Made by a program: the position numbers and the translations under genes. A DNA stretch of 21,082 nucleotides, from the IMG/VR virus record IMGVR_UViG_3300033145_000122, positions 1 to 21,082 of that record; one strand, 5' to 3'. The notes beneath the pieces were generated by a model. The model did not search any database. It had not been told where the DNA came from and saw only the letters and a program-made list of their open reading frames with translations. The first letter of the stretch is position 1; each line of letters opens with the position of its first letter. Below, piece after piece: positions 3,681 through 4,300 of the stretch. This DNA is from a virus.

Positions 3681-3908
3681 AACGGGGTGGCGGAATAGGT
3701 AGACGCTATAATGGTAGATTAGAACACTGGTGGCATAGTGACACGCTACGGCCTAAACGGATTGAACCGACCCATAGGACTCCGTTAAGTGGCAAGGTAG
3801 ACAAAGCTAACCATCTAGGGTGACAAAGTTGTCAAACAACGAAATCCCTAGCCCCGTGCATTACGACGGAGGGGTCTCCAGAAAGGTTCTGTCCTTATGG
3901 GTGCCCCT
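3681..3908 (+). ncRNA. Structured RNA resembling an interrupted tRNA-Leu with a reduced group I intron (tentative)
   Basis: Positions 3681-3707 read as the 5' part of a tRNA-Leu: a 7-base acceptor strand AACGGGG, U8, then GGCGGAATAGGTAGACGC with a leucine-type D arm. The acceptor strand can pair with CTCCGTT at 3780-3786 (followed by A, the usual leucine discriminator) or with CCCCGT at 3852-3857. Positions 3744-3768 resemble, from memory, the exon-intron junction of cyanobacterial/plastid trnL(UAA) group I introns (CGCTACGG.CT.AA..GGATTGA.CC). Further on, CTAGGG (3815-3820) pairs with CCCTAG (3846-3851) around hairpin GTTGT/ACAAC (3828-3840); 'AAATCCCTAGCC' resembles a group I Q element and 'GTGCA..ACGACGG' an R element. 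AGGGG/CCCCT (3870-3874, 3904-3908) encloses CAGAA/TTCTG. I could not build a full cloverleaf or a convincing P7, so it may be a degenerate intron or another RNA. The AT-rich stretch 3640-3680 just upstream could hold a promoter. Confidence 0.35.
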
Positions 3909-3919
3909 TCAGTTATCCC

Positions 3920-3941
3920 CCCTATTGCTTCGGTGGTAGGG
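3920..3941 (+). other. UUCG-capped RNA hairpin
   Basis: CCTATTGC (3921-3928) pairs with GTGGTAGG (3933-3940) around a TTCG loop, including three G-U pairs. C3920-G3941 extends the stem to 9 bp. The C(UUCG)G cap is an especially stable tetraloop, and the G-U pairs indicate folding as RNA of the + strand. It lies between the tRNA-Leu-like RNA and the next hairpin and may be its 3' domain. Confidence 0.55.
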
Positions 3942-3943
3942 AG

Positions 3944-3968
3944 TAGAGTCCCCAAAGTGGGGACTCTA
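3944..3968 (+). terminator. Perfect 10-bp hairpin, terminator- or processing-like
   Basis: TAGAGTCCCC (3944-3953) and GGGGACTCTA (3959-3968) form a perfect 10-bp stem with a 5-base loop (AAAGT). It lies 6 bases before the tRNA-Asp. There is no run of T after it (GCATTTACC), so an intrinsic terminator is doubtful. It could be an RNA-processing signal separating the upstream RNA from the tRNA. Confidence 0.4.
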
Positions 3969-3974
3969 GCATTT

Positions 3975-4046
3975 ACCCCATTGGTCTAATGAATAGGATG
4001 CCTGCCTGTCGAGCAGGAGGCAGGAGTTTAATTCTCCTATGGGGCG
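3975..4046 (+). tRNA. tRNA-Asp (anticodon GTC)
   Basis: A full cloverleaf can be drawn. The acceptor is ACCCCAT/ATGGGGC (6 of 7 pairs; A1-C72 is mismatched). The D arm is GTCT..AGGAT, and the anticodon stem CCTGC/GCAGG encloses loop CTGTCGA with GTC at 4008-4010. The variable loop has 4 bases, and the T stem AGGAG/CTCCT has the 7-base loop TTTAATT. G73 at 4046 is the aspartate identity base. No CCA is encoded (CCT follows). The T loop has T instead of the usual C56 and the acceptor end is mismatched, so function is probable but not certain. Phage tRNAs typically top up host supply during late expression. Confidence 0.88.
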
Positions 4047-4057
4047 CCTGTATATAA

Positions 4058-4156: not shown

Positions 4157-4297
4157 ATGCCCGTAAAGGTAAGTAAGCGAAGCGGTAGCAAACCTTTTAA
4201 GATTGTAGAAAAAACGGGTAGGATAGTGGGTAGTTCAACAACAAGGGCAAATGCCCAGAAGTCAGCAAATGCTAGGAATGCCTCAAGAAGGAAGTAG
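4157..4297 (+). CDS. Small basic phage protein (46 residues) before the portal gene
   Basis: The ATG at 4157 follows CTGGAGG (4145-4151) and gives 46 residues ending at TAG 4295-4297. The protein starts MPVKVSKRSGSKPFKIVEKTG and ends in an Ala/Asn/Arg-rich, lysine-ended helix. I recall similar short 'KPFKIVEKTGKVVG' proteins in phage head regions, with no known function. It is strongly basic and could bind nucleic acid or pack inside the head (inference). It sits 3 bases before the portal ATG, and its last codons carry the portal ribosome site. It is too short for ordinary ORF lists but has good coding character and SD. Confidence 0.75.
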   Translation: MPVKVSKRSGSKPFKIVEKTGRIVGSSTTRANAQKSANARNASRRK

Positions 4298-4300
4298 TTT

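Follow-up and report, generated by a model that had tools for sequence, protein, structure and literature searches.

A widespread tRNA-like phage RNA with a variable domain in place of the anticodon arm

What kind of RNA, if any, is encoded just upstream of the tRNA-Asp gene in the window, by which we mean the whole 21,082-nucleotide stretch of viral DNA analyzed here? An earlier note had seen at this locus a structured RNA with traits of both tRNA-Leu and a group I intron, and had offered three options: a shrunken intron, a tRNA gene broken by insertion, or a new phage RNA family. The first two had to be given up, and the third was retained. As judged from sequence comparison, positions 3681 to 3858 belong to a phage RNA that is widespread, has not been cataloged, and folds in the manner of a tRNA. 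That the family is real is hardly in doubt, and its status as a family is well supported, but its function is not. Membership of the window element is highly probable as well, its weak point being an acceptor stem with 6 of 7 bp.

The stretch is indeed structured, as the earlier note held (z = -2.90, with 1 of 200 shuffles equally stable). Its reading of positions 3681 to 3706 as an acceptor strand (AACGGGG) followed by a D arm of the tRNA-Leu type was borne out too, but the pieces join otherwise than it had supposed, the 3' partner of the acceptor strand being CCCCGTG at 3852 to 3858. What had been taken for a P4/P5 arm with a Q-like strand (3815 to 3851) is actually a T arm, whose stem CTAGGG...CCCTAG encloses a T-loop that is interrupted. 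The Q, R, and S strands of a group I intron were not confirmed, with no match to RF00028 (a model of the P3-P8 core) in the window up to an E value of 5; the "S-like" strand, AGTAGAGTCCC, lies outside the RNA, as one arm of a separate hairpin (3944 to 3968).

An unconstrained fold yielded the same stems, with probabilities of 0.77 to 1.0 for the acceptor, D, and T pairs (0.89 to 1.0 in the acceptor stem, where A3681 opposite G3858 remains unpaired, and 0.87 in the D arm), and it also contained the T-loop hairpin (Table 1); the possible closing helix of the middle was absent from it. A T-arm/acceptor partner downstream of the D arm arose by chance in only 2 of 5,000 dinucleotide shuffles of the downstream sequence. 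The window element has the D motif, U48 before the T stem, a 6-bp T stem, a T-loop of the form UG...AAAU, and acceptor pairing (6/7), all of which characterize the family described below. More precisely, its T-loop reads UGAC...GAAAU around a small hairpin, GUUGU/ACAAC, a short version of the helix found in a whole class of relatives, and the base following the acceptor is C. A covariance model (R1) that is useful for standard members gave the window 41.7 or 30.8 bits, a score that rests on the D arm, and thus ranked it no better than tRNA-Leu (about 32 to 47 bits), because the long middle and the T-loop insert exceed the span of the model. An alternative 3' end proposed by R1, at 3780 to 3786, pairs with the acceptor strand at 7 of 7 positions but leaves no T arm and was rejected.

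Table 1. Features of the tRNA-like element in the window and the neighboring tRNA gene
Feature	Position	Strand	Remarks
Whole tRNA-like RNA element, 178 nt	3681..3858	+	Descriptor match, unconstrained fold, 162 distinct relatives
Acceptor stem, 5' strand AACGGGG	3681..3687	+	6/7 pairs with 3852-3858
UG and D arm UGGCGGAAUAGGUAGACGC, tRNA-Leu type, 3-bp D stem	3688..3706	+	19/19 identical to family consensus
Variable middle, 108 nt, CCAU at end, replaces anticodon and variable arms	3707..3814	+	
Possible closing helix of the middle	3711-3715/3810-3814	+	Enriched in family
T stem, 5' strand CUAGGG	3815..3820	+	6/6 pairs with 3846-3851; same stem in L072, L114, L318, L325
Interrupted T-loop UGACAAAGUUGUCAAACAACGAAAU	3821..3845	+	Internal hairpin 3828-3832/3836-3840; TGAC...[C/G]AAAT insertion class
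T stem, 3' strand CCCUAG	3846..3851	+	Pairs with 3815-3820
Acceptor stem, 3' strand CCCCGUG	3852..3858	+	No encoded CCA after it
tRNA-Asp (GTC), neighbor outside the element	3975..4048	+	ARAGORN and Rfam RF00005

No existing catalog accounts for this RNA. No Rfam 15 family covers it, whether at relaxed thresholds in the window and in one relative (L119) or at gathering thresholds at 16 loci, and Infernal searches with the Rfam models for group I introns, tmRNA, and GOLLD, which the earlier note had named, gave no match. The tRNA model RF00005 did not match positions 3681 to 3858 up to an E value of 5, ARAGORN called no tRNA there with default or intron-allowing settings (relaxed settings gave only spurious calls), and across the family, ARAGORN made any call in just 2 of 162 elements. 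No prior description was found in open papers, the literature searched as distinct from subscription papers and preprints. The element is present in phi3T, SBSphiJ, Listeria phages LP-101 and P70, and Enterococcus phage EFP01, and no RNA feature is given for it in the annotated records of these five phages that were fetched. RliG of Listeria prophage A118, considered as a possible known member, was dismissed since the corresponding A118 interval contains no element.

More than 160 distinct relatives with a common plan were found in phages and prophages, among both Firmicutes isolates and IMG/VR contigs. The plan runs from a 7-bp acceptor stem through UG, a D arm, a middle of 8 to 192 nucleotides (median, about 65) ending in CAU, a 6-bp T stem, and a T-loop (UGCAAAU or UGAC...CAAAU) back to the acceptor, and in 108 of the 162 members, the T stem is immediately preceded by "CAT". 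The D arm, GGCGGAANAGGUAGACGC, is nearly invariant, an invariance that is overstated because most relatives were collected via a tRNA-like motif; in the insertion class, mostly fetched without the D motif, 43 of 63 elements contain it exactly. The body of the RNA is made up of the acceptor, the D and T arms, and conserved elbow nucleotides, with an acceptor-T stack of 13 bp (7 + 6). It has no anticodon arm, encoded CCA, or fixed discriminator base; the variable domain occupies the position of the anticodon arm, and one class, the window included, adds a hairpin in the T-loop. The exact D-arm word occurs in at least 120 viral contigs, and among the matches listed, 21 of 122 copies belonged to ordinary tRNA-Leu genes according to ARAGORN, most others sharing the family plan.

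The 162 distinct elements that were extracted comprised 99 standard ones and 63 with a T-loop insertion, and further ones were seen afterwards. Since this extraction required pairing, we also evaluated an unbiased set of 89 elements, anchored on the D motif and GUGCAAAUC with no pairing demanded. Here, 95% of acceptor positions were paired, compared to 54% when the 3' strands were shuffled among elements (maximum of 59% in 500 shuffles); the acceptor was complete (7/7) in 71 elements, and nearly all pair types occurred. Covariation in related phages, proposed in the earlier note as the mark of a real RNA, turned out to be strong: in alignment A1, both-sided changes were found in 7 of 7 acceptor pairs and 4 of 6 T-stem pairs, and the covariation score reached 0.661; it was 0.173 after shuffling, and sliding the partners never gave more than 0.136. 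The D stem covaries as well, from GGC..GC to GGU..AC in the insertion class and between phages Grass and SBSphiJ. Some phages hold the element twice, as identical copies (L205) or as different ones (L159).

The insertion class (TGAC...[C/G]AAAT), to which the window belongs, counts more than 60 relatives. A search for GGUGACUAUACGAGU, which did not require a D arm, revealed features of the element at 108 of 121 places, and in 72 of the 87 fully readable places, a 7/7 acceptor partner followed by UG was found upstream. The inserted helix is mostly CGAG/CUCG, with CAGG/CCUG, CGAA/UUCG, CAAG/CUUG, CUAG/CUAG, and CUAA/UUAG also occurring, and was 94.6% paired, compared to 88.7% after shuffling (maximum, 91.0%). 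Close relatives of the window element were found in L072, L114, L318, L325, and L279, and its T stem, CUAGGG/CCCUAG, recurs in related phages. The closest parallel found is that of L318, with a 110-nucleotide middle, CACCAU, and CUAGGG UGACAAUGGCAACA...UGUUGCUCAAAU CCCUAG. In L072, which shares a phrog_7339-type exonuclease gene and a DUF4406 gene with the window, the same T stem encloses a loop with no insertion; this T stem is also found in L114, which is more distantly related (28% identity in the major capsid protein [MCP], 48% in a tail protein); and in L279, whose MCP is 66% identical to that of the window, the element lies upstream of the capsid genes and has an insertion in the D-loop. 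The outcome that the earlier note had named as refuting its reading, with unrelated sequence in homologous phages, therefore did not arise, since L072, L114, and L279 carry the same element. No element was found in the stretches examined of four further MCP relatives (L274, L280, L282, and L283), and no relatives of the window's portal protein were found. Downstream of the element in L325 and at 3850 to 3920 of L279, a similar segment is present, GAGCTACAT.GATAGCCCATTTA.GAG, with a terminator-like GGGCTTTTTT at its end.

Against this conserved scaffold, the middle stands out. In phages Grass and SBSphiJ, flanks, acceptor, and T arm are nearly identical and the middles unrelated, so that near-identical phages differ here by a swapped middle only, and conversely, one common middle was found inside two different scaffolds (L008 and L027). 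The comparisons show exchange of the middle between close relatives, with scaffold and flanks kept. They also show that unrelated phages of one host can have a similar middle, as in phi3T and Bacillus herelleviruses; a similar likeness, of 76 to 82%, was seen among Listeria phages LP-101, B054, and P70. Mere transfer may account for similar middles in unrelated phages of one host. A closing helix of at least 6 bp directly 5' of the AU-T stem is present in 50% of the family, versus 13% after shuffling, and the middle is therefore structured. Apart from one duplicated element, middles matched their own locus no better than chance, and no target was found; the idea that the payload pairs with the genome of the phage carrying it was dropped, since such complementarity did not exceed chance either. 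An exact 16-nucleotide repeat in the window, ATAATGGTAGATTAGA, at 921 to 936 (within a small open reading frame [ORF], 725 to 1102) and at 3708 to 3723 (the start of the middle), was likewise ruled out as target pairing, being a same-sense repeat within an ORF. Some middles contain tRNA-like parts: that of L080 holds a complete nested tRNA-Lys(UUU), which is one of the two ARAGORN calls mentioned above, that of L099 a tRNA-like piece, and T-arm-like hairpins occur in 7 of 162 middles (0.07 expected).

Gene neighbors of the element vary among phages. In temperate Firmicutes phages, it follows RinA/ArpU and precedes HNH/terS; in Herelleviridae, it lies within tRNA clusters; and in other phages, it is found beside exonuclease, endolysin, or polymerase genes. 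Intrinsic terminators were located within 130 nucleotides downstream of 22 of 154 elements, compared to 29 of 1,540 random windows, and tRNA genes lay within 600 nucleotides of 25 of 162 elements (8.9 expected), all 40 such neighbors being co-oriented with the element. In Listeria phage LP-101 (L140, 2812 to 3237), the element is flanked by two RNAs known to Rfam, rli62 and mcrA, in an RNA-rich late-switch region that follows the RinA gene. In the window itself, the fold of the interval between element and tRNA-Asp (3859 to 3974) contains three further hairpins, among which is a perfect 11-bp stem without a U-run (3944-3954/3958-3968; UAGAGUCCCC...GGGGACUCUA), the source of the "S-like" strand. 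A small basic ORF (MPVKVSKRSGSKPFKIV...) is found at 4157 to 4299, and a similar one lies upstream of the portal gene in L274.

Because of the terminators and co-oriented tRNA genes, the varied context, and a middle that is both exchanged and structured, we favor, with a probability of roughly 0.45, a free-standing RNA in which a tRNA scaffold would carry host-adapted payloads and act in trans. The tRNA shape would stabilize the RNA, which host tRNA enzymes would perhaps trim, and the middle, together with the T-loop insert where present, would be the working part. We infer that this part acts on a host target; its exchange would then reflect the need to match a host-specific RNA, protein, or defense factor. 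More tentatively, the element might represent a major class of phage RNA, a tRNA-shaped carrier reloaded with exchangeable, host-specific payloads that could, for example, block host defense or redirect host RNA metabolism, and that would have escaped notice because it is rejected by tRNA finders and has no entry in Rfam. Such a reloadable carrier would be a new phage tool against hosts as well as a ready-made tRNA-scaffold design.

The chief rival, which we consider unlikely but worth weighing, is a tRNA decoy: the tRNA-shaped body would be the active part, occupying host proteins that recognize its acceptor or its elbow (such as RNase P and RNase Z, tRNA-modifying enzymes, or a defense nuclease that cuts tRNA), and the middle would be a neutral spacer. 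The function could reside in the conserved elbow, and the middle might vary simply for lack of constraint, given that elbow nucleotides and stems are the sole conserved parts and that the tRNA elbow is recognized by numerous RNAs and proteins (PMC4810234). A neutral spacer, however, is hard to reconcile with a closing helix conserved in kind before the T stem and with middles that recur among phages of one host, and T-loop insertions of up to about 100 nucleotides should impede elbow binding; discriminator and CCA, moreover, are not conserved. A decoy would point to an unknown tRNA-targeting process. Both this reading and that of a carrier can be tested in Bacillus subtilis, and the element occurs in well-studied laboratory phages.

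A cis-acting role is improbable. According to this idea, the late transcript would contain the element as a tRNA-like leader or processing site, where a cut by RNase P or RNase Z separates or stabilizes mRNAs. In favor of it, many temperate phages of Firmicutes have the element on the coding strand, with the RinA/ArpU activator on one side and terS on the other. It does not explain the occurrence in Herelleviridae tRNA clusters and beside unrelated genes, nor an orientation that is not always that of the neighboring genes, and downstream terminators that are commoner than chance speak against it as well.

Slightly less probable still is a Y RNA-like scaffold, in which a ring protein of the Ro type would bind the middle, with access gated by the tRNA-like body, as in bacterial YrlA/Rsr. 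YrlA, too, mimics a tRNA, its functional stem occupying the anticodon position, and the tRNA cluster of Listeria phage P100 holds a degenerate copy of the element, about 3 kb from the gene for a DUF2828/DUF7788 "RNA-binding protein" (gp165), possibly Ro-like. For a P100-like Listeria phage, the authors of a 2025 study proposed Y RNAs for the most abundant transcripts, near tRNA genes (PMC12282133), a proposal in line with this idea; equating the degenerate P100 element with those transcripts would be speculative. As general partner genes, TROVE, DUF2828, and DUF7788 were ruled out among the records tested: TROVE was absent from 22 of 22, a count that covers partners encoded in these records themselves, and DUF2828 was present in P100 only (1 of 22). 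Ro-site words occurred in 6 of 162 middles, the YrlA model RF02553 had no match over its cutoff in the window and nine element-bearing records, and YrlA is circularly permuted relative to the element. In P100 (NC_007610, 119000 to 131384; L405), the tRNA genes are annotated on the plus strand, and the DNA reads them on the minus strand.

Finally, decay of a tRNA-Leu gene or of a trnL group I intron, as offered by the earlier note among its options, has virtually no probability left: the D arm is identical to the tRNA-Leu type and AACGGATTGAACC resembles the start of a trnL intron, but Rfam group I and tRNA models and intron-allowing ARAGORN runs find nothing at the locus, and strong pair conservation and covariation across relatives refute both the degenerate tRNA-Leu and the intron remnant.

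How, then, does the element compare with known RNAs? With group I introns (RF00028), it shares short word resemblances only and has no core. Like the tRNA-like domain of tmRNA, it combines a tRNA-like end with the lack of an anticodon arm, but it has a true D stem and no tag reading frame, and neither ARAGORN -m nor the Rfam tmRNA model matched it. Bacterial tRNA-Leu shares the D arm GGCGGAANAGGUAGACGC, the 7-bp acceptor, and the elbow bases U54, C56, A58, and U48. Unlike tRNA-Leu, the element has G at position 55, a 6-bp T stem (and hence the 13-bp stack), no anticodon arm, and no CCA; the features needed for charging (CCA and the discriminator, A73 for Leu) are not conserved, an A following the acceptor in 58 of 99 standard and 24 of 63 insertion elements. 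The nearest known analogue found is YrlA (RF02553), whose order of parts we took from an alignment of true YrlA genes. In YrlA, this order is circularly permuted (Ro stem, T arm, acceptor hairpin, D arm), its ends forming the Ro-binding stem, whereas in the element the D arm precedes the T arm and the ends form the acceptor stem; both RNAs mimic a tRNA with D-like and T-like arms, and in YrlA it is a functional stem that takes the place of the anticodon arm.
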